NCBI GenBank assembly: GCA_903831595.1
Contig: CAIKXY010000001.1
Location: 1-47,073 of the forward strand
Direction of reading: 5' to 3'
Source of the DNA: an uncultured bacterium
GTDB taxonomy: Bacteria; Patescibacteriota; Minisyncoccia; Phycocordibacterales; GWA1-40-21
DNA: 47,073 bases
Positions 15,380 to 46,375 of this stretch are shown here, piece by piece (position 1 is the first letter of the stretch; each line of letters starts with the position of its first letter). The position numbers and the translations under genes were made by a program. Under the pieces are notes generated by a model. The model ran no database searches, was not told the origin of the DNA, and saw nothing but the letters and a program-made list of their open reading frames with translations.

Positions 15380-15585
15380 GCCTCCTCCTCAATTTTTTTT
15401 GTATCGCTTTTACTTAAAATATAATCTTTAACCACAAAATGTAATGTGGCACCTCCAAAAATAATAAAGACTATTAGTGTAGCAACCATCAGAACTAATT
15501 CTTGCTCAAAAATAGAACCTATAATAATGAATCCAATAAACGCAAATACAATAATAGGCAATAAAATGTTATTGTCATTATTCAT
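15376..15585 (-). CDS. 69-aa two-span membrane protein
   Basis: Unknown function. Two predicted membrane helices (about residues 8-27 and 30-51) are followed by a charged tail ending in IEEEA. It has a consensus SD (AAGGAGG) 4 nt before the ATG and a promoter of TTGACA (15640-15645), 16-nt spacer and TATTAT (15618-15623). This differs from the SD-less core genes around it. It overlaps the 44-aa gene by ATGA. The pair forms one of the SD-type cassettes of this window. Confidence 0.75.
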   Translation of the reverse strand: MNNDNNILLPIIVFAFIGFIIIGSIFEQELVLMVATLIVFIIFGGATLHFVVKDYILSKSDTKKIEEEA

Positions 15586-22345: not shown

Positions 22346-23380
22346 ATGAAAATAACATTAGGTTTTAAACCAAAGCAATCAGTGAAGAAGCTTCTTCTTG
22401 CATTGCCAGAAAGATCAAGAGATATAATTATTAAAAGATATGGATTGGGTAAGAACCCAGATTTAATGACACTTGATGCTATTGGAAAATCTTATGGTAT
22501 TACTCGTGAAAGAGTTAGACAAATTGAAAACCACGCTATAGCAGCTATTAGAAAATCAAAGAATTATTCAGATGAAAAACCAGTTTTTGATGAGATTGAA
22601 AAAATAATTAACGGCCTTGGTGGAATTGTTGTAGAACAAGATTTACTTGATCATGTTTCAAAAGACCCTTCAATACAGAGTTGCATAAACTTTTTACTTG
22701 TTGTTGGGCATCCTTTCAATAAAATAAAAGAAGATGATGATTTTAAACACAGATGGTTTATTGATAACAACCTCGCTATAAAAATTCAAGGATCACTTAA
22801 AAAATTATATGAGAATCTAAAAGATGATGAACTTATTTCTGAACAAGAAATGATAAAAACATTTTTAAGCTATATTGAAGATGTTTCTGAACAATATAGA
22901 ACAGAAGAGATCGCAAAAAGATGGCTTAACTTATCAAAGAAAATCTCAAAAAATCCACTTGGCGAATGGGGTAAAACAGCTTCAGCAAATATTAGTATTA
23001 AAGGTGTAAGAGATTATGCATATTTAGTAATTAGAAAGCATGGTTCACCTATTCACTTTAAAGAAGTCGCAAAAGCAATAACAACTGTATTTAATAAAAA
23101 AGCGCATATTGCTACTACACATAATGAGCTTATAAAAGATCCAAGATTTGTCCTTGTAGGAAGAGGTTTATATGCACTTTCAGAATGGGGATATATAAGC
23201 GGTGTTGTTAAAGATGTTATAAAGAAAGTATTAGAAAAAAACGGACCAATGACAAAGAAAGAGATAGTGGAAAAAGTTATGAAAGAAAGATATGTCAAGG
23301 AGAACACTATTGTTATCAATCTCCAAAATAAAAAGTACTTTACAAAAAATAAGGATGGAAAATACGAGGTTGTAAAATAA
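22346..23380 (+). CDS. Sigma-70 region 4 plus HARE-HTH (RNAP delta-like) regulator
   Basis: A two-domain transcription-associated protein. Residues about 22-70 are a sigma-70 region 4-like helix-turn-helix (RDIIIKRYGLGK...TLDAIGKSYGITRERVRQIE). The C-terminal part holds a HARE-HTH winged helix (GSPIHFKEVAKAI...THNELIKDPRFVLVGRGLYALSEWG) like the delta subunit of RNA polymerase, then a second winged-helix-like segment. There are no regions 2 or 3, so it is not a complete sigma factor; it may modulate RNAP. A strong terminator follows. Confidence 0.85.
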   Translation: MKITLGFKPKQSVKKLLLALPERSRDIIIKRYGLGKNPDLMTLDAIGKSYGITRERVRQIENHAIAAIRKSKNYSDEKPVFDEIEKIINGLGGIVVEQDLLDHVSKDPSIQSCINFLLVVGHPFNKIKEDDDFKHRWFIDNNLAIKIQGSLKKLYENLKDDELISEQEMIKTFLSYIEDVSEQYRTEEIAKRWLNLSKKISKNPLGEWGKTASANISIKGVRDYAYLVIRKHGSPIHFKEVAKAITTVFNKKAHIATTHNELIKDPRFVLVGRGLYALSEWGYISGVVKDVIKKVLEKNGPMTKKEIVEKVMKERYVKENTIVINLQNKKYFTKNKDGKYEVVK

Positions 23381-23395
23381 TATCATTAAATAAAC

Positions 23396-23430
23396 AAAAG
23401 GGCGGGCTCGCTAAGTGAGCCCGCCCTTTT
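23396..23430 (+). terminator. Strong terminator after the sigma-region-4/HARE gene
   Basis: A 14-bp perfect stem AAAAGGGCGGGCTC / GAGCCCGCCCTTTT with a 7-nt loop, followed by GTTTT. Confidence 0.9.
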
Positions 23431-23461
23431 GTTTTAATTTGTAATTTTGCTATAATATTAA

Positions 23462-23467
23462 TACAAT
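23462..23467 (+). promoter_or_regulatory. -10 element for the leaderless DUF8128-like gene
   Basis: TACAAT ends 6 nt before the ATG at 23474. A second TATAAT lies at 23451-23456. No SD is present. Confidence 0.5.
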
Positions 23468-23473
23468 ATTATT

Positions 23474-24760
23474 ATGATTAGTTTTTTATCGAATACATTA
23501 AATTCAGGTTTATATTCTACAACTATTAGGTATTTATTGATTTTGCTTCCAATAGCTTTACCGATCATTTTATTGGTCCTATTTTGGATTGTAAGATTTA
23601 GATGGATCACAATGAATTATATTTATAAGTTGAAGCCTTTTATTATTGAAATAAAATTGCCAAAAGAGATATTAAAATCCCCAGCTGCAATGGAAATATT
23701 TTTTTCATATTTTGCACAGAGAGGTGCTGAAAATTTAAATGAAGCATTTTTAGATGGTAGAACCCGCCCATGTTTCTCTTGTGAAATTGTTTCTACGGGT
23801 GGAGTAGTTAAATTTTTTATTTGGTGTAGTGACTCAAAATGGAAAAATTTAATTGAAACGCAACTTTATGCTCAATATCCAAACCTAGAAATATTTGAAA
23901 CTGAAGATTATACAAAAGATTTTTATTTTGATCCAGATAAATATCCAATGTTTGCGACTCAATATGCACTTGTAAAACCAGATCCGTTTCCAATTAAAAC
24001 TTATATAGATTATGGTTTAGGTTTAGGAGAAGATCAAAAAGAAGAATATAAAATAGATCCATTAACTTCTGTTATTGAGTATATGGGGTCTTTAAAAAAA
24101 GGTGAAAATGCTTGGATTCAAATTCTTATACAAAAACATGAAAAACCTACTATTTTTCACGGCAAGTCTTCGGTTGATAAGATCTTAAAAGATGAAATAA
24201 AAGATGAAATAGAAAAAATAAGAAAGGAGGCAATCCCAGAAGCAGACAAAAAAGATGACAAAGCATTTAAATTTCCAAACCCCACAAAAGGACAAGTGGC
24301 TATAATTTCTGCTTTAGAACGAAGTTCAACAAAAACACCTTTTGAATGTATGATAAGAAGTATTTATATTTGTGAAAAAAATGCATTTTTTCCACCAAAC
24401 ATAGGAGGTTTAGTTGCTGGTGTAAAACAATATTCATCTGCAGATTTAAATGGCTTTAGACCTGATACCGTAACAGAGGGGGATCCTATTAATAGAGATT
24501 TTGCAAGAATATTTCCTTTTTACAAAAAAATATTGGAAAGAAATGTTTTAGATAGGTCAAGAGACCTATTGTATGCATATAAATTAAGATCGTATTTTCA
24601 GCATCCATATAAACATTATGGGAGAAGTCGACCTTTTATTTTAACTACAGAAGAGCTAGCCACGATTTTTCATTTTCCAAGCGGTTTGGTTTCTCAAACA
24701 CCAACTTTGCAAAGAGTTCCTTCTAAAAAGTCAGAAGCACCTTCAAATTTACCTGTATAA
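23474..24760 (+). CDS. Membrane-anchored CPR family protein (DUF8128-like)
   Basis: A 428-aa protein with one long N-terminal membrane helix (about residues 18-42) and a large cytoplasmic part. Segments such as FIIEIKLPKEILKSPAAMEIFFSYF, FSCEIVSTGGVVKFFIW, IETQLYAQYPNLEIFE and SKSEAPSNLPV recall a conserved Patescibacteria family usually encoded beside VirB4/TraG-type ATPases of type IV-like secretion systems. No ATPase gene is adjacent here; mltG follows by 12 nt. The family assignment is from memory of its sequence, and the function is unknown. Confidence 0.65.
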   Translation: MISFLSNTLNSGLYSTTIRYLLILLPIALPIILLVLFWIVRFRWITMNYIYKLKPFIIEIKLPKEILKSPAAMEIFFSYFAQRGAENLNEAFLDGRTRPCFSCEIVSTGGVVKFFIWCSDSKWKNLIETQLYAQYPNLEIFETEDYTKDFYFDPDKYPMFATQYALVKPDPFPIKTYIDYGLGLGEDQKEEYKIDPLTSVIEYMGSLKKGENAWIQILIQKHEKPTIFHGKSSVDKILKDEIKDEIEKIRKEAIPEADKKDDKAFKFPNPTKGQVAIISALERSSTKTPFECMIRSIYICEKNAFFPPNIGGLVAGVKQYSSADLNGFRPDTVTEGDPINRDFARIFPFYKKILERNVLDRSRDLLYAYKLRSYFQHPYKHYGRSRPFILTTEELATIFHFPSGLVSQTPTLQRVPSKKSEAPSNLPV

Positions 24761-26437: not shown

Positions 26438-27190
26438 ATGGAGGTAAAACAACAAATATTAGCTTTATACAAAAATATGGGAGAAACACCACTTGAATGT
26501 TTGGAGCGGTTTAAAATTAATAATCCAGAATACAAAAATGAAAAAATGACTTATGCGGGGCGACTTGATCCACTTGCTGAAGGGTTGCTTTTAGTATTAG
26601 TTGGTGAAGAATGTAAAAATAAAGAAAAATATTTGGGATTAGATAAAGAATATGAAGTCGATGTGCTTTTTGGATTTGCGACTGATACCTATGATGTTTT
26701 GGGACTTGTAACTGAATACGAAAAAACTGACAAGGAAATTATCCAACTTGAAAAAATATTAAAATCTTTTGTTGGTAAGTTTACTCAAAAGTATCCAGCA
26801 TATTCATCAAAAACAATAAATGGAGAAACAATGTTTTCCTTATCTAAAAGTGGAAAGTTAAATGATGATGAGATTCCCAAAAAAGATGTCGAAATAGATA
26901 GTATTGAATTACTAAATCAAAAAACAATATCTAAAAATTATTTAATGAAATATATTAATGATTCTATTGCTCTAGTAAAAGGCGATTTTCGTCAAAACGA
27001 AATTCAAAAAGAATGGGATACTGTAATGGCAAGGTCAGACCTTGACGAATTCAATATTATCTCAATTAAGATTAATTGCTCCAGTGGAACTTATATGCGC
27101 ACTTTAGCAAACTTAATTGGAGAAAAGGTTGGTATTCCGGCTTTAGCTTTAAATATAAAAAGAACAAAAATAGGGAAGTTTAGTATATAA
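26438..27190 (+). CDS. truB: tRNA pseudouridine(55) synthase TruB
   Basis: Makes pseudouridine 55 in the T-loop of tRNAs. The catalytic motif YAGRLDPLAEGLLLVL and the downstream KEYEVDVLFGFATDTYD segment are characteristic. KYPAYSSKTINGE and the C-terminal INCSSGTYMRTLAN also match. With this start it has 250 aa. I prefer the ATG at 26438 (MEVKQQ) to 26417, because a -10-like TATTCT (26424-26429) lies between the two and would exclude the upstream one. It ends at a strong terminator shared with typA. Confidence 0.92.
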   Translation: MEVKQQILALYKNMGETPLECLERFKINNPEYKNEKMTYAGRLDPLAEGLLLVLVGEECKNKEKYLGLDKEYEVDVLFGFATDTYDVLGLVTEYEKTDKEIIQLEKILKSFVGKFTQKYPAYSSKTINGETMFSLSKSGKLNDDEIPKKDVEIDSIELLNQKTISKNYLMKYINDSIALVKGDFRQNEIQKEWDTVMARSDLDEFNIISIKINCSSGTYMRTLANLIGEKVGIPALALNIKRTKIGKFSI

Positions 27191-27194
27191 ATAA

Positions 27195-27229
27195 AAGGGG
27201 GGTTCGCGAAGCGAACCCCCCTTTTATTT
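27195..27229. terminator. Bidirectional terminator between truB and typA
   Basis: AAAAGGGGGGTTCGC / GCGAACCCCCCTTTT around GAA, a 15-bp perfect stem with T/A tracts on both sides, between convergent genes. Confidence 0.9.
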
Positions 27230-27233
27230 AAAA

Positions 27234-29015
27234 TTATCCTTTTCTTTCGTTTTTATCCCTCATCGACTTTGTTAAAAGTTTTTTTCTTAGTCTTACTGTC
27301 TTTGGTGTAATTTCTAGATACTCATCATTTTGCATTGTCTCTAATCCTTTCTCAATATCCATTCTCATTGGTGGGACAAGATACAAAGCTTCATCAGAAC
27401 CAGAAGCACGCATATTTGTAAGAGCTTTATTTTTTGTTGGGTTAACTTCCAAATCTTCACCGTTAAGCACATGTCCGATGACCATTCCTTCATATATTTC
27501 AACTGCTGGGTCAATGTAAAGCACACCTCTTTCTTGAAGATTCCAAAGTGAAAATGCCATTGTTTTTCCTGTGACCATCGAAGTCATTGAGCCAAATTCT
27601 TGTTTTTGTATTTCGCCGGCATAAGGTCTAAAATTTATAAATCTTGAACAAAGAATTCCTAAACCTTTTGTGTCCACAATAAATGCACCCCTGTATCCAA
27701 GAAGTCCACGGGTAGGAATTTCAAAAATCATCCTGACTTGGTTGTCGCGGATTTTCATATCTTTCATAATCCCTTTTCTTTTACCTAGTTTTTCAATAAT
27801 AGTTCCTTGGAATTCTTCTGGGACATCAACTGTGACTTCTTCATAAGGCTCCGACATTACGCCATCAATTTCTTTTACGATTGCGTGCGGCTGGGAAACT
27901 TGAAGTTCAAAACCTTCTCGTCTCATATTTTCTATCAAAATTGCAATGTGAAGCTCACCTCTGCCATAAACAGTTATTGGCTCGCTATTAAAATCTATTC
28001 TTAATCCAACGTTTACTTCAAGTTCTTTTTCAAGTCTTTCTCTTATTTGTCTTCCAGTAACAAATTTACCTTCGCGTCCTGCAAAAGGCGAATCGTTAAC
28101 AAGAAAATTCATAGAAATAGTTGGCTCATCAATATTGATAGCTGGAAGGGGATTTTGCTCTGCATTTTCACAAATTGTTTCTCCAATAAATGCATCAGAA
28201 ATACCGGCAATCATCGCAATATCTCCAGCCGTAGCTTCTTCTACCGCATCTTTTTGAATTCCCTTAAAAGTATAAAGTTTGGTGATTCTTGTGCTTCTTG
28301 TTTCGCCGTTTGGCATTTTTAGGAAAATAGTTTGGCCATCTTTTACTTTTCCATTATAAATTCTGACGATAGCAAGTCTGCCAAGAAAATTATCATAAGC
28401 AAGATTAAAAATCTGTGCTTCGAGTGGTTTTGTAATATCGTTTTTTGCAGGTGGTACTTTTTCAAGAATCATATCTAAAAGGGGAGTCAAATCTTTTTGC
28501 TCATCTTTTGGATCAAGCATTGCTACTCCTTTTCTTCCAACAGCATAAATAACAGGGAAGTTTAGCTGTTCATCATTTGCACCAAGTTCCATAAATAATT
28601 CTAAGACTTCTTCGTGTGCTTCTTCTGGTCTTGCTGCTGGTTTATCAATTTTATTTATAACAACGATTGGTTTTAGCCCAAGTTCTAGTGACTTTTTCAA
28701 AACAAATCTTGTCTGTGGCATAGGACCTTCTTGTGCATCTACGACAAGTAGCACTGTATCTATAGAACGCAAAACTCGCTCAACTTCAGAGCCAAAGTCT
28801 GCGTGACCAGGAGTATCAACGATATTTATTTTTGTTCCTTTATAAAAAATGGAAGTATTTTTTGCATAAATAGTAATACCTCTCTCTTGTTCGAGTTTAT
28901 TACTGTCCATACTGACGCCTTCTTCAACCATTCCTGTTTGTCTAAGAATTGAGTCTGTAAGACAGGTTTTTCCATGGTCAACGTGAGCTATAATTGCGAT
29001 ATTTCTAATTTCCAT
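27234..29015 (-). CDS. typA: Translational GTPase TypA/BipA
   Basis: Ribosome-associated GTPase needed for growth under stress and cold. The G motifs are intact: AHVDHGKTCL (G1), a switch I region with ERGITI, DTPGHADF (G3) and NKIDKP (G4). EF-G-like domains II, III and V follow, with GRGELHIAILIENMRREGFEL and TRGLLGYRGAF, then the BipA-specific C-terminal domain. Length is 593 aa, typical for the family. Its 5' side faces the palindrome at 29033-29050 and the unidentified RNA. Confidence 0.97.
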   Translation of the reverse strand: MEIRNIAIIAHVDHGKTCLTDSILRQTGMVEEGVSMDSNKLEQERGITIYAKNTSIFYKGTKINIVDTPGHADFGSEVERVLRSIDTVLLVVDAQEGPMPQTRFVLKKSLELGLKPIVVINKIDKPAARPEEAHEEVLELFMELGANDEQLNFPVIYAVGRKGVAMLDPKDEQKDLTPLLDMILEKVPPAKNDITKPLEAQIFNLAYDNFLGRLAIVRIYNGKVKDGQTIFLKMPNGETRSTRITKLYTFKGIQKDAVEEATAGDIAMIAGISDAFIGETICENAEQNPLPAINIDEPTISMNFLVNDSPFAGREGKFVTGRQIRERLEKELEVNVGLRIDFNSEPITVYGRGELHIAILIENMRREGFELQVSQPHAIVKEIDGVMSEPYEEVTVDVPEEFQGTIIEKLGKRKGIMKDMKIRDNQVRMIFEIPTRGLLGYRGAFIVDTKGLGILCSRFINFRPYAGEIQKQEFGSMTSMVTGKTMAFSLWNLQERGVLYIDPAVEIYEGMVIGHVLNGEDLEVNPTKNKALTNMRASGSDEALYLVPPMRMDIEKGLETMQNDEYLEITPKTVRLRKKLLTKSMRDKNERKG

Positions 29016-36079: not shown

Positions 36080-36970
36080 TCAATTTGGTTCAATATGAAC
36101 TAAAATTTTACCTAATTCAGGAATTTCTTTTTTTAAAATATCGTTAACTTCATGTGCTAGTCGGTGACCTTCTTTGACTGTTGTATTCGCGTCTATTGTA
36201 ACGTGTAAATCAACATGATATCTCATTCCGGCTTTTCTAACAAAACATTTTTCTGTATTTATTATGCCTTTAACAGTTAAAGATACATTATTAATTTTTG
36301 CTACTAAATCATCATGTATATCTTCATCCATTAATTCACTGATCGCTGGTCGAAAAATTTTGTAGCTATTATAGATAATAAAACAAGCTGCAAAAATTGC
36401 TGCAATATTGTCTGCAATAGCAAAATTTTCACCAAAAATAATAGCAATTGAAATCCCAATAAATGCTGCAACTGATGTTATTGCATCGCTTCTGTGGTGC
36501 CACGCTTCAGCTTTTAGTGAAGAGCTTTTTGTTATTTTACTTTTTCTATTTATTATTTGAAATATAATTTCTTTCCAAATAATAATTGGTGCAAGTATAA
36601 GTAATGTCCATGTGTGCGGTACTTTGTGCAAAATAAATATACCTACAATATTGTTTTGGATTATAAGTATAGCTGAAGCAAATAATATAAAAGAAACGAT
36701 AAGCGCTACTAATGACTCTGCTCTCCCATGCCCATATGGATGGTTTTCATCAGCTGGTCTACTTGAAAATTTTAGACCAAATAATACAAGAAAGGAGGAA
36801 AAAACGTCAGTTGTTGATTCTATCGCATCAGCAATTAAGGCATATGAATTACCAAAATATCCAGCAGCACCCTTTATAATTGAAATAAAGATGTTACCAA
36901 TAACGCTAAAAATCGCTGTTTTTTCAGCAATTTTTTGATTTTCTGAGGCTTGCACTGATATGTTATCCAT
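36080..36970 (-). CDS. Cation diffusion facilitator family transporter
   Basis: Zn2+/Fe2+/Mn2+-proton antiporter family (CDF). It is 296 aa with about six membrane helices. Metal-site residues are visible in YALIADAIESTTDVFSS (helix 2) and HHRSDAITS (helix 5, HxxxD). HPYGHGRAES is the conserved loop, and the C-terminal domain (about 215-296) has the ferredoxin-like fold with CFVRKAGMRYHVDLHVTID. The HxxxD site resembles zinc transporters, but the metal cannot be fixed from sequence. It is separate from the b5/reductase pair by about 60 nt. Confidence 0.92.
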   Translation of the reverse strand: MDNISVQASENQKIAEKTAIFSVIGNIFISIIKGAAGYFGNSYALIADAIESTTDVFSSFLVLFGLKFSSRPADENHPYGHGRAESLVALIVSFILFASAILIIQNNIVGIFILHKVPHTWTLLILAPIIIWKEIIFQIINRKSKITKSSSLKAEAWHHRSDAITSVAAFIGISIAIIFGENFAIADNIAAIFAACFIIYNSYKIFRPAISELMDEDIHDDLVAKINNVSLTVKGIINTEKCFVRKAGMRYHVDLHVTIDANTTVKEGHRLAHEVNDILKKEIPELGKILVHIEPN

Positions 36971-37005: not shown

Positions 37006-37033
37006 TTGCAATTAATATAAAATATGCTATTAA
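37006..37033 (+). promoter_or_regulatory. Promoter of the 26-aa cassette
   Basis: TTGCAA (37006-37011), 16-nt spacer, TATTAA (37028-37033). The predicted start near 37040 gives a leader of about 82 nt. Confidence 0.4.
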
Positions 37034-37044
37034 ATACATGTAGC

Positions 37045-37121
37045 AGGTATCCCAATCGTCACACTCCGAGTAATACCTCACCCAAGTAACAAAACAAAAA
37101 TGTTACTAAGGAGTGATTGGG
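37045..37121 (+). promoter_or_regulatory. Structured leader that can sequester the SD, pseudoknot-capable
   Basis: CCCAAT (37051-37056) and CACTCC (37062-37067) are together complementary to the contiguous GGAGTG-ATTGGG (37110-37121), a 12-bp helix with a 5-nt bulge. This helix covers the AAGGAG SD and ends at the ATG. AGTAAC/GTTACT (37085-37107) makes an inner hairpin. AGGTAT (37045-37050) and ATACCT (37073-37078) pair around the CCCAAT...CACTCC segment, giving a pseudoknot. The layout resembles translation-controlling riboswitches; the ligand is unknown. Confidence 0.6.
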
Positions 37122-37202
37122 ATGAAAATCTACTACGCAACACAGGACGGGTTGATATACTCAACTCTTGCTGAGGCACAAGAAGCCAAGGCATCAAGGT
37201 AA
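37122..37202 (+). CDS. 26-aa small protein MKIYYATQDGLIYSTLAEA...
   Basis: A short open frame that starts 7 nt after an AAGGAG site and ends just before a terminator. The peptide begins MKIYYATQDGLIYSTLAEA and ends with a basic AKASR; it has no membrane segment. Support comes from its SD, strong terminator and structured leader rather than homology. Its base composition is less AT-rich than the surroundings. It could instead be a leader peptide or an exported small RNA with incidental coding. Confidence 0.5.
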   Translation: MKIYYATQDGLIYSTLAEAQEAKASR

Positions 37203-37213
37203 AACTTGGTCCG

Positions 37214-37249
37214 AAGGGCGACCCTATATTTTGTGAGGTGGGCGCCCTT
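37214..37249 (+). terminator. Terminator of the 26-aa cassette
   Basis: AAGGGCG / CGCCCTT with a 22-nt loop that can pair partly, followed by TTTT. Confidence 0.7.
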
Positions 37250-37276
37250 TTTTAATGTAAACGATATTGGTCTAAG

Positions 37277-37783
37277 TTAAACTACTAGTAAATCATTAAT
37301 TTCTTTATAAGATTTTAGTTTTATGGTTTTGTGAAGGTGTGGCTCTAATAGTGCTTTATTTGTCTTTTCTTTATCATTCGCTATCCCAAAACGTTTGCGA
37401 GTGACATATATTAACATTTTTAATAAATCAGCAATCGATTCATAATCTCTTGTTGTTTTTCTTTTAATTAGAGTAAACCACTGAGAAAAAATATTACTCC
37501 ATTTTAAATGGATGATAACATCGGCTTTATCAAGGGCAGATTTATATAAGTGTGAGCTTGATCCTTCCACGATCCATTCATCAGTCTGGTACACCAAATC
37601 AATTTTCTTAATACTTTCTTGTCTGTCATGGCGCTCTGTAAATTTCTTTTTCCACAGAAAATCATCAGTTGAATATAGTGGAATATTCAATTTTTCTGAC
37701 AGTGCTTTTGCCAAAGTAGTTTTTCCACGACCAGATTCACCTATAACTAATATTTTTTTTGATTTAAATATTTTATCTTTCAT
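37277..37783 (-). CDS. P-loop kinase, FlaR/adenylate kinase-like
   Basis: A small nucleoside-kinase-type ATPase (168 aa). Walker A is GESGRGKTTLA near the N-terminus, followed by STDDFLWKKKF and WIVEGSSS, the pattern of the FlaR/'topology modulation' kinase-like family. The substrate is unknown. An in-frame ATG at 37816 would overlap the 51-aa membrane protein gene by 14 nt; the start at 37783 (MKDKIF) puts the P-loop at the usual position. It lies downstream of that small gene and is probably co-transcribed. Confidence 0.75.
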   Translation of the reverse strand: MKDKIFKSKKILVIGESGRGKTTLAKALSEKLNIPLYSTDDFLWKKKFTERHDRQESIKKIDLVYQTDEWIVEGSSSHLYKSALDKADVIIHLKWSNIFSQWFTLIKRKTTRDYESIADLLKMLIYVTRKRFGIANDKEKTNKALLEPHLHKTIKLKSYKEINDLLVV

Positions 37784-37802
37784 ATTTAAATGTATAGATA
37801 TA

Positions 37803-37958
37803 TTATTTGAACGCAAAAGACAAAAGGACGATAGTTAGAGCGTTAAGAATGACCAGTGCTAAAACCATATGAAATTTTGATGGAAGGGGATTCCATAAAA
37901 TATATATTGTGTAAATTATTGCAACAATAGCCGCACCTATAAAATTTCCTTTAATCAT
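37803..37958 (-). CDS. 51-aa two-span membrane protein
   Basis: A short gene below usual length cut-offs. Two hydrophobic segments (GNFIGAAIVAIIYTIYILW and FHMVLALVILNALTIVLLSF) are linked by NPLPSK. TATAAT (37965-37970) ends 6 nt before the ATG, the same spacing as at frr and rmuC, which supports a real leaderless gene. The kinase gene begins 19 nt downstream. The function is unknown. Confidence 0.65.
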   Translation of the reverse strand: MIKGNFIGAAIVAIIYTIYILWNPLPSKFHMVLALVILNALTIVLLSFAFK

Positions 37959-38527: not shown

Positions 38528-39073
38528 TCATTTTGGGAGTGGTTTATTCCACACCCCATCGAGGAAACCAAAAGATATAGCTTCATCGATAGTCATTGGT
38601 TGATCTTTTGCGTATTCCGACTTAACTTTTGAAAGACTCTTTCCAGTCCTTTTTATGACTATGTCATAAATTTTATTCTGGATTTTTTCCATATTTTCAA
38701 TTAGCTTTGTTAATTTTTCTTTATCTCTTAGGTCGTCTAAAGACAGACGACGACGAATATTGTGAACCAGTATACTTGCATTGACTGTCCCATACCTTTC
38801 GTCACAAGCTTGCAAAATAACAGTTGCCATTGAAGAAGCTTCATTACAGACAATTGCAGTCTTTTTTCCTGGATAAAGGGTTAGTAGATCATAAATGGCG
38901 AAACCACAATCTACTGATCCGCCCTTGCTAGAAATTATCACTGTAATATCTGGTGAACCAGCAAGATAAAACTTGGTTAAAGAATTTTGAACATACGATA
39001 ATTTTTTTTCATTAACTTCACCAATAATCGCAACGATTTTTTTCTTCAAAAAACTTTTCTCAGTATTTTCCAT
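38528..39073 (-). CDS. ClpP-like serine protease
   Basis: A 181-aa protein of the ClpP/crotonase fold. GGSVDCGFAIYDLL is the oxyanion region, EASSMATVILQA holds the nucleophile (Ser81), ILVHNI the His (His104) and KDQPMTIDEAISFGFLD the Asp (Asp157), so the triad is intact. It is less conserved than housekeeping ClpP and no Clp ATPase is adjacent. It may be a second, accessory peptidase. It is an SD-type unit (TTGACT 39174-39179, 17 nt, TACTAT 39151-39156; SD TGGAGG) with a leader homologous to that of the GH17-like gene. Confidence 0.88.
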   Translation of the reverse strand: MENTEKSFLKKKIVAIIGEVNEKKLSYVQNSLTKFYLAGSPDITVIISSKGGSVDCGFAIYDLLTLYPGKKTAIVCNEASSMATVILQACDERYGTVNASILVHNIRRRLSLDDLRDKEKLTKLIENMEKIQNKIYDIVIKRTGKSLSKVKSEYAKDQPMTIDEAISFGFLDGVWNKPLPK

Positions 39074-39089: not shown

Positions 39090-39179
39090 ATTTTTTAAAG
39101 ATCAATAATAAGTGCGAGTGGTTTAAACCACATATGTATTTTCTAAATACATAGTAAATTAAAAATACCGTTTAGTCAA
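39090..39179 (-). promoter_or_regulatory. Promoter and leader homologous to that of the GH17-like gene
   Basis: It contains ATTTTTTAAAGATCAATAA (39090-39108), the palindromic hairpin GTGGTTTAAACCAC (39118-39131), TGTATTTTCTAA, the -10 and TAGTCAAGTC with the -35. The same elements occur in the same order at 44124-44211. Confidence 0.75.
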
Positions 39180-39321
39180 GTCGAATAATAATTTGCTCAA
39201 GTAAGTATGAATAGTAAAAAATGATATATAAAATCTATAAAATAAATTGGTTATAAAAACTTGTATGGATATATTGAATATGATAACTTTATAAGGCAAA
39301 TAATTTACTTAAAATATAAAT

Positions 39322-40859: not shown

Positions 40860-41492
40860 ATGAAAAAAATTCTTTTGGTTGTTTTTTTTGTATTTGTACT
40901 GACATCAATTTTGATGTCAGAGGAAAACATATTTATGATTGGATATGAAAGATATTGGTTTCCAAGAATAGATATTGTCCACGATACGCACCCAGATGAT
41001 TGGTTTCTTCCAAACGCTAGTGTTCCAGGTTCTGCTGGAACAACCTCATTGGGGGGTGAGTCTTCGTACTTAGCATTAGGAGTAAGGTATGAAGTGATAA
41101 AGGTGTTGCCGTATACAATAAATTTAAAGGGAGCAATACTAATTGGCGATATTACAAATTCTATGCAAAAAAACGCTAATGATCCAAGACCAGATCAAAT
41201 TGCTGCATTTGTATATTCAAACAATCATTACGGTTTTTATCTAGAAACTGGTTGCTCATATTATCTTTTTGATATAATTGGTATAGGAGCAAACGTTAGA
41301 TTTACTGGAATTTACTCAGAGTGGGGGTGGAGCAGATTTAGCTCCAACCAAGCTGTGGGGTCAAAGTGGGATTGGGACACATCATTTGGTCCAAATCTCA
41401 TTGTAAAAATTTGCAATAAACTAAAAATTGAAATCGGTTTGCAATTAAAGGACGGGAGGCCTTTAAATGCAAACATTATTTTTTGCGAGTAA
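40860..41492 (+). CDS. Secreted beta-rich protein, outer-membrane-like
   Basis: A 210-aa protein with a signal peptide (residues 1-20, MKKILLVVFFVFVLTSILMS) and alternating-hydrophobicity strands rich in Tyr/Trp/Gly (GYERYWFPRID, YLALGVRYEVIKVLPYTINLKGAILIGD, IGIGANVRFTGIYSEWGW), like small beta-barrels. The upstream in-frame start at 40728 lies before the promoter and is rejected; AGGAGGAT directly precedes 40860. Patescibacteria are thought to lack an outer membrane, so a barrel would be odd. It is an SD-type cassette with terminator 41500-41530. Confidence 0.7.
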   Translation: MKKILLVVFFVFVLTSILMSEENIFMIGYERYWFPRIDIVHDTHPDDWFLPNASVPGSAGTTSLGGESSYLALGVRYEVIKVLPYTINLKGAILIGDITNSMQKNANDPRPDQIAAFVYSNNHYGFYLETGCSYYLFDIIGIGANVRFTGIYSEWGWSRFSSNQAVGSKWDWDTSFGPNLIVKICNKLKIEIGLQLKDGRPLNANIIFCE

Positions 41493-41499
41493 GATAGCT

Positions 41500-41530
41500 A
41501 GGGCTTGATTAGAAATTCTAATCAAGCCCT
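41500..41530 (+). terminator. Terminator of the secreted 210-aa gene
   Basis: AGGGCTTGATTAG / CTAATCAAGCCCT, a 13-bp perfect stem with a 5-nt loop, followed by TATTTTATT. Confidence 0.88.
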
Positions 41531-41573
41531 TATTTTATTGAACTATTATGAGCAAAAATAATTTAATAAAAAA

Positions 41574-41603
41574 CCTCGCTACACCAATTAAGGCGCAGCG
41601 AGG
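41574..41603 (-). terminator. Terminator of the 253-aa gene
   Basis: CCTCGCT / AGCGAGG with a 16-nt loop; the minus strand continues with TTTTTTATT. Confidence 0.75.
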
Positions 41604-41610
41604 CGTTGTT

Positions 41611-42372
41611 TCAAAACGTATATGCAACTCCTGTTGATAGAGCGATATTTCCGCTTTGTTTTCTTGGATCACCACCATGCACAAGAGTAAGCGGATAAAC
41701 CACAACAATGTCAAGGATGTTCCAAGTTAAGTCTCTAAAAATTTTTTTTTGAAAAGCAGACTCTAGCTGCAAAGTTAGTAACTCATTAAATTGTTCTATT
41801 TTGCTGTTCCATTGTAGACTAAAAACAATGGGAGAATTTAAATCAAAAACACTAATCTGACGATACGGACTAATTGAAATTAATGATACAATCACACCTC
41901 CATTATTAAAATTATTTGCGTAGTGCAGATATCCAATTCCAATTGAAGAAATATACACACCATCAAACGAATCACTGAAACAGCTCAAATGAACATTATA
42001 TAACAATATTTTTTTACTAACTGTGTTTGTTATTGGTAACATATCAAAATATTTTACAAAAATATTCAGAGATACATTAGAGTCAATTGAAAATGCCTTA
42101 CCAATAAAAATGTCAGTTTCATCGATTGTGTCAGCGTTTTGATTAATGTTATTTAACCAAGAATGATGAGTAATTGAGAAGCCTATTGCCCCAGGTAATT
42201 TTAAATACATAGAAACTTCTGTATTTAGCCCATCACATGTGGTAAGACTTAAATAATCGTTAAAACATTTATTTCCAATACTAAATGATAATTGATTGTA
42301 TTGATCTGTGTTGGCAATTGATGCACTAACAATAACTAGTATTGCTATCAAAACATAAAATACACTTTTCAT
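41611..42372 (-). CDS. Secreted beta-rich protein ending in a C-terminal Phe
   Basis: A 253-aa protein with a signal peptide (about residues 1-20, MKSVFYVLIAILVIVSASIA) followed by many amphipathic strands and a last strand NIALSTGVAYTF. A terminal aromatic residue is the mark of BAM-assembled outer-membrane barrels, although that is only suggestive. AGGAGG abuts an ATG at 42378 with no spacing; the next ATG at 42372 has proper spacing and is chosen. Promoter: TTGACT (42491-42496), 16 nt, TAATTT (42469-42474). The leader contains a TGAGTC/GACTCA hairpin. Confidence 0.7.
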   Translation of the reverse strand: MKSVFYVLIAILVIVSASIANTDQYNQLSFSIGNKCFNDYLSLTTCDGLNTEVSMYLKLPGAIGFSITHHSWLNNINQNADTIDETDIFIGKAFSIDSNVSLNIFVKYFDMLPITNTVSKKILLYNVHLSCFSDSFDGVYISSIGIGYLHYANNFNNGGVIVSLISISPYRQISVFDLNSPIVFSLQWNSKIEQFNELLTLQLESAFQKKIFRDLTWNILDIVVVYPLTLVHGGDPRKQSGNIALSTGVAYTF

Positions 42373-44123: not shown

Positions 44124-44211
44124 ATTTTTTAAAGATCAATAAAAAGAGCGTGGATTAATTCCACATTGTATTTTCTAACAACACTGTAGATTATTATTAC
44201 TATATAGTCAA
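44124..44211 (-). promoter_or_regulatory. Promoter and leader homologous to that of the ClpP-like gene
   Basis: Minus strand: TTGACT (44206-44211), 17-nt spacer, TACAGT (44183-44188), then the hairpin GTGGATTAATTCCAC (44150-44164) and the 19-nt block ATTTTTTAAAGATCAATAA (44124-44142) that is identical at 39090-39108. Confidence 0.75.
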
Positions 44212-44287
44212 GTCTAAAATCTTTGCACAAAATTGATAAAAAAATTTATACTTGTTTATGTTCTCAACTATATGATAAGATTCAAAA

Positions 44288-45882: not shown

Positions 45883-46094
45883 AGTAGGCCTCCTTTTACT
45901 TTTTGGCACAATGTTATCTTTGCCACAGTAGAAAATTTTATATATAAATAAAAAACTATCTGCTGTAGCAAAAATATGTAATATATAAAAGAACTATTAA
46001 ATATATAATAAACCTTAATTTAATCTTTGTCAAACCATGCTCCAGAGACAGGACTTCTTCCATTATATGGACTGTATACCTTTTAAAAACGAGA

Positions 46095-46185
46095 CAGGGA
46101 ATCGACCCTTACAGGGTCAGTACCCCGATTGGATATTTTGTTTCGTTATGCTCACAAAATATACTCAATCGGGCTTCGATCCCTG
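46095..46185. other. 91-nt three-way-junction inverted-repeat element
   Basis: The closing stem CAGGGA-TCGA (46095-46105, one bulge) pairs with TCGA-TCCCTG (46176-46185). Inside are a small hairpin ACCC/GGGT (46105-46117) and a long arm CCCGATTG/CAATCGGG (46124-46131 with 46166-46173) extended by TATTTTG/CAAAATA (46134-46140 with 46155-46161). One arm resembles a tRNA T-arm read on the minus strand, but no complete tRNA fits. It could be a structured RNA or a folded single-strand recombination site. Confidence 0.5.
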
Positions 46186-46186
46186 A

Positions 46187-46375
46187 CATAAGCAAAGACT
46201 TTTGCTTATTTCTCCGGAGCCTAAAAATCAAAAAGACCCAAACAATGGGTCTAATGATTTTTGGCTCGCCCTTCTCCAAGACTTTCGAACATTTGACTGG
46301 GCTGACGAATACAAGTATCCGACCGTCGTTCTCTCCCAAATGAACCAACTGCTGGCCGAATGCAAAGAGGGATAA
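46187..46375 (+). pseudogene. C-terminal remnant of a higher-GC coding sequence
   Basis: An open frame of 62 codons without any start, running from an in-frame TGA to TAA. The part NDFWLALLQDFRTFDWADE and KYPTVVLSQMNQLLAECKEG reads like a genuine protein C-terminus, with C/G-rich third positions quite unlike the AT-rich host genes. The parent family is not recognised. Its 5' part contains two hairpins, AAGCAAA/TTTTGCTT and a long one at 46218-46266. It may instead be non-coding structured sequence. Confidence 0.35.
46218..46266. other. 18-bp interrupted hairpin
   Basis: AGCC/GGCT, AAAAATCA/TGATTTTT and AGACCC/GGGTCT stack with a single bulged T and a small A-rich internal loop; the apical loop is 7 nt. 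There is no simple terminator context, as it lies inside the higher-GC island. Confidence 0.5.

Follow-up and report, generated by a model that had tools for sequence, protein, structure and literature searches.

On the plus strand of the window, the whole 47,073-nucleotide stretch of DNA analysed here, positions 37040 to 37255 form a folded unit of about 215 nt. We give an even chance to the reading that this unit is a lineage-specific, stand-alone structured small-RNA gene whose 26-codon open reading frame (ORF) is incidental or tightly locked. One compact RNA would be made up of a long hairpin at the 5′ end, a junction of three hairpins in the middle and an intrinsic terminator, and with the Shine-Dalgarno (SD) sequence and the start codon lying within the 5′ helix, little if any translation of the full-length RNA would be expected. 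The ORF would then either have no coding role or be expressed only when another factor opens the hairpin, and the RNA would most likely act in trans, in a regulatory or structural capacity. We infer its transcription, its promoter, its low translation and any function from the DNA sequence and the predicted folds.

A folded unit within a local GC island

The predicted fold continues past the leader, through the ORF and into the terminator. Across the whole unit (37040–37255), the fold has a z-score of about −5.2 to −5.7 on the plus strand, with no shuffled sequence as stable, and the centroid structure is the same as the minimum free energy (MFE) structure. The minus strand of the same interval also folds above chance (z −3.8), while the plus strand folds better overall and is the only one to carry the terminal T-run. 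GC content is about 42–50% within the unit and about 21–25% at its edges, making it a local GC island. As expected of a stand-alone structured small RNA, the fold is significant throughout and the unit closes with an intrinsic-terminator-like end. That end is a GC-rich inverted repeat directly after the ORF, in which the stem GAAGGGCG.CCC/GGGCGCCCUUU is followed by TTTTTT (37213–37253, plus strand); it was overlooked by our terminator scan because its loop is 15 nt long and the scan was limited to loops of 3–8 nt.

Between the 5′ hairpin and the terminator lies a folded domain on the plus strand (37145–37212) that overlaps the ORF, in which a GGAC/GUCC helix closes three hairpins (37149–37167, 37169–37193 and 37195–37208). 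The structure of the ORF region was more stable than all 300 recodings drawn with the codon usage of the window (z −4.2 to −4.3) and, when only the synonymous codons already present in the ORF were permuted, more stable than 298–299 of the 300 resulting sequences (z −3.1). A fold that exceeds synonymous recodings and runs through the ORF argues for selection on RNA structure across the whole transcript. Taken with the intact terminator and the coherent fold of the whole unit, the excess stability over shuffled sequences suggests that selection acts or recently acted on this RNA. Elsewhere in the window, 200-nt windows at 41326–41700, 46026–46300, 27051–27300 and 23301–23550 also folded more strongly than their GC content predicts, several of them on both strands.

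GC-rich intergenic islands in AT-rich bacteria are an established signature for finding structured non-coding RNAs (the GC-IGR approach, PMC6429828). The unit has in common with the orphan non-coding RNAs found in this way a GC-rich, strongly folded intergenic sequence, an AT-rich genome and a terminator; unlike them, it is one example only, lacks covariation support and contains an SD-led ORF. The RNA would therefore be a new member of an already known kind, known so far from one tiny-genome bacterium alone.

A predicted 5′ hairpin masks the ribosome-binding site

The 5′ part of the unit is predicted to form a long hairpin of 22 bp on the plus strand (37040–37136), with an MFE of −30.2 kcal/mol and a z-score of −4.8 for 37040–37135. 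It is built from the helices GUAG/CUAC, AGGU/AUCU, AUCCCAAUC/GAUUGGGAU and ACUCC/GGAGU, with two small inner hairpins; the 5′ end, GUAG.AGGUAUCCCAAUC, pairs with GAUUGGGAU....AUCU.CUAC, and the hairpin extends into codon 5 of the ORF. The hairpin buries the GGAG of the SD sequence and most of the AUG, and the G and A bases at 37110–37113 are more than 98% paired in the predicted fold. When the strand carrying the SD sequence and the start codon was held fixed, only 2 of 3,000 dinucleotide shuffles of the upstream part folded as well, and 29 of 3,000 upstream shuffles yielded an equally strong duplex with the 12-mer GGAGTGATTGGG. Masking of the SD sequence and start codon by the upstream leader, as claimed in the initial annotation, is thus well supported in silico by the MFE pairing and by the shuffles, and of the two functions proposed there, the second, a small RNA carrying an anti-SD arm, fits best.

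The annotation had further described a perfect 12-bp helix, with a second helix enclosing its 5′ strand so as to make a pseudoknot. All of the strings that it named are found at 37045–37124 on the plus strand: AGGTAT (37045–37050), CCCAAT (37051–37056), CACTCC (37062–37067), ATACCT (37073–37078), AGTAAC (37085–37090), GTTACT (37102–37107) and GGAGTGATTGGG (37110–37121), followed by the ATG from 37122. The strings forming the 12-bp helix do pair, but a 5-nt bulge interrupts the helix on its 5′ side. The inner hairpin AGTAAC/GTTACT (37085–37107, plus strand) is worth −4.1 kcal/mol alone and is part of the MFE structure. The pseudoknot itself was not borne out by the energies. Its enclosing helix, P1 (AGGTAT/ATACCT, 37045–37078, plus strand), competes with the long hairpin and is not favoured; in the unconstrained fold, its AGGU pairs instead with AUCU in codons 3–4. 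For 37040–37142, P2+P3 gave −17.5 kcal/mol, P1 alone −3.0 kcal/mol and the unconstrained fold −30.2 kcal/mol, such that a plain long hairpin is preferred. On geometric grounds, moreover, a pseudoknot combining P1 with the full 12-bp helix would have linkers of 0 nt and 5 nt with which to span about one helical turn.

The 26-codon open reading frame

Consistent with the initial annotation, the hairpin is followed by an ORF of 26 codons plus TAA (37122–37202, plus strand; translation MKIYYATQDGLIYSTLAEAQEAKASR*) and then by the terminator, although the ORF is possibly not translated. The SD sequence AAGGAG (37108–37113, plus strand) stands 8 nt before the ATG. An SD-like motif precedes 38 of the 1,511 ATGs in the window, and most long genes there do without one. 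The codon score of the ORF ranks among the highest 3% when compared with shuffles, which is a mildly gene-like usage, and the 26-aa peptide, which is hydrophilic (GRAVY −0.37), looks protein-like. Judged by sequence, the codon usage, the strong and well-placed SD sequence and the protein-like peptide count against a purely non-coding reading.

Two classes of gene start were apparent across the window. Most genes, among them those for tRNA synthetases and other housekeeping functions, follow AT-rich upstream regions without an SD sequence; in some of these, a TATAAT-like box immediately precedes the ATG, and such genes are perhaps leaderless. Strong SD sequences occur in a minority, consisting of small or accessory genes that cluster at 15–17 kb and 38–46 kb. 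Examples lie at 15585, 16653, 17160, 33361, 39073, 40540, 40860, 42372, 44105, 45237 and 45882.

The unit might instead be the mRNA of a real 26-aa protein, silenced by the 5′ hairpin and opened by processing, by a helper RNA or protein, or by co-transcriptional timing, a reading that we hold to be possible rather than probable. The SD sequence at 8 nt and the codon bias speak for it, as does the nearly complete sequestration of the start by the 5′ end of the same transcript: the ribosome footprint can be opened only at a cost of 23.4 kcal/mol, compared with 7.1–12.5 kcal/mol at eleven other SD-led starts in the window and a mean of 10.3 kcal/mol at background ATGs, about 0.8% of which are as closed. 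This high cost also counts against the ORF being a gene and in favour of the stand-alone small RNA. Among type I toxins, for example timP (PMC11228461), there is an established precedent for mRNAs that are locked by masking of the ribosome-binding site and must be refolded or processed. By analogy, such an mRNA would resemble type I toxin-antitoxin loci in its operation, and we do not claim membership in them. The likeness lies in a short transcript in which the SD sequence and start of a tiny ORF pair back with the 5′ region, both being masked in the full-length mRNA. On the other hand, the peptide here is hydrophilic and not a small membrane toxin, the sequence shows no evident antisense RNA that could serve as antitoxin, and folding favours a simple hairpin over a pseudoknot. 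The ORF is itself also filled by structure, and a second ORF of 24 codons, overlapping it from 37100 in a different frame, indicates that ORFs of such length arise readily in this region.

Searches with the peptide, furthermore, yielded no homologue. None was found among 380 phylum-wide genomes and 397 genomes of the order, where the one match (L018) was rejected as noise, having an E-value of 0.24 and lying within an apparent long coding region. There was no match in Pfam and nothing beyond noise in the phage and plasmid collections; a weak PHROG match (phrog_5109, E 0.09) was rejected as homology. When about 85,000 species genomes were scanned for a motif of the peptide, the four matches all lay inside long unrelated proteins.

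If translated on demand, the transcript would be a locked-mRNA switch in so minimal a cell. The two readings could also be joined in a dual-function RNA, in which a trans-acting structured RNA would additionally yield the 26-aa peptide once the 5′ lock opens and would represent a new lineage-specific regulatory class; we regard this as unlikely.

Genomic context and strand

The genome is AT-rich, 726 kb in size and 96% complete, and its small size suggests membership in the Candidate Phyla Radiation. The unit stands alone on the plus strand between two minus-strand genes, a CDF cation-efflux gene (36080–36970) and a P-loop NTPase gene (37277–37816), and since both neighbours lie on the minus strand, there is no plus-strand operon for which the RNA could be a leader. 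The CDF gene has no relative at E<1e-20 in the family, and relatives of the P-loop NTPase gene occur in one sister species only; by sequence comparison, neither neighbour is conserved together with the unit. A possible promoter for the RNA, TTGCAA - 16 nt - TATTAA (37006–37033, plus strand), is weak, matching 4 of 6 positions in the −10 hexamer, and falls under the threshold of our promoter scan. The weakness of this promoter and the minus-strand z-score count against a stand-alone plus-strand RNA.

The minus-strand fold, which stops 70 nt upstream from where the CDF gene starts, could alternatively be a structured 5′ leader of that gene, read through from 37255. We consider this very unlikely, given that the plus strand folds better, that the T-run suits the plus strand only, that a separate promoter-like site (37011–36983, minus strand) intervenes before the gene is reached from the element, and that no metal riboswitch in Rfam matches either strand.

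Search for relatives

The initial annotation had proposed a search for the leader in relatives, which was run and recovered no homologue: searches for the RNA across the family, order and phylum sample, in Rfam, and in the virus, phage and plasmid collections all came back without one. At the DNA level, the unit matched only itself in its own genome and the family. Single-sequence covariance models of the 3′ domain and of the 5′ hairpin gave nothing credible in 40 near relatives, nor in 148 (3′ domain) and 397 (5′ hairpin) genomes of the order, with all matches at E > 0.03. Two of these matches were rejected, one within DNA reading as a tRNA-synthetase gene (G493) and one within an ATPase-like gene (G717); those in G006, G395 and G397 were weaker still. 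A 25-nt match (L007) was rejected as chance, lying inside a long protein-coding ORF, and DNA or protein searches of the plasmid and phage collections returned merely chance matches of 24–42 nt, in phages. The exact helix pattern had no matches in the virus and genome collections and AGGAGTGATTGGGATGAA none in virus contigs, while a 17-mer of the 3′ domain matched once, in unrelated virus DNA without anything else of the element. On both strands, Rfam gave nothing at gathering score, the best weak matches being unrelated (E 3.6–7.6).

With no homologue recovered, the region might also represent a remnant in decay, either of imported DNA or of an element that has lost its function, and its single copy in the genome, its absence from sister species and its GC content, unlike that of the surroundings, would agree with this. 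We judge the remnant reading very improbable all the same, as the terminator is intact, the whole-unit fold is coherent and no shuffle is as stable.

6S RNA shares with the unit a stand-alone RNA of about 200 nt with a long 5′-proximal helix, but where 6S RNA is a single long hairpin with a bubble at its centre, the unit folds into three domains. A 6S covariance model found no match in the window, in the genome that contains it or in related genomes, which is weak evidence, as the search gave a match in only 6 of 14 control genomes.

Translational riboswitches with pseudoknots over the SD sequence are known, for example the preQ1 and SAM-II classes, and riboswitch classes normally recur across genomes. 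The initial annotation's first choice, a metabolite-sensing riboswitch or a thermosensor controlling the tiny gene, shares with them a real sequestration of the SD sequence by upstream sequence, yet it appears highly improbable: there is no Rfam match on either strand and no recurrence in the genomes searched, the pseudoknot is not favoured, the terminator comes straight after the 26-codon ORF with no metabolic gene on the plus strand ahead of it, and, speaking against a thermosensor, the modelled fold remains closed up to 70 °C, the mean unpaired probability of the SD sequence barely changing from 0.334 at 10 °C to 0.392 at 70 °C.

Our literature search on non-coding RNA in such reduced-genome lineages found nothing on the topic; small RNAs of bacteria of this sort are little studied. 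As a putative small RNA that is compact, isolated and ended by a terminator, the unit is an easy candidate to seek in transcriptome data.

The window also contains two copies of a 5′ leader of about 110 nt (39090–39185 and 44124–44217, both minus strand; 71–93% over two adjoining blocks), with no third copy found in the genome. These leaders carry a promoter (TTGACT-17-TACTAT), hairpins and an SD sequence, and lie upstream of one ClpP-like and one GH17-like gene. The gene at 38528–39073 (minus strand) encodes a ClpP-family protein that does not reach the curated cut-off of any ClpP model; the models nearest to it are those of general ClpP subfamilies and of the ClpP involved in phage head maturation.
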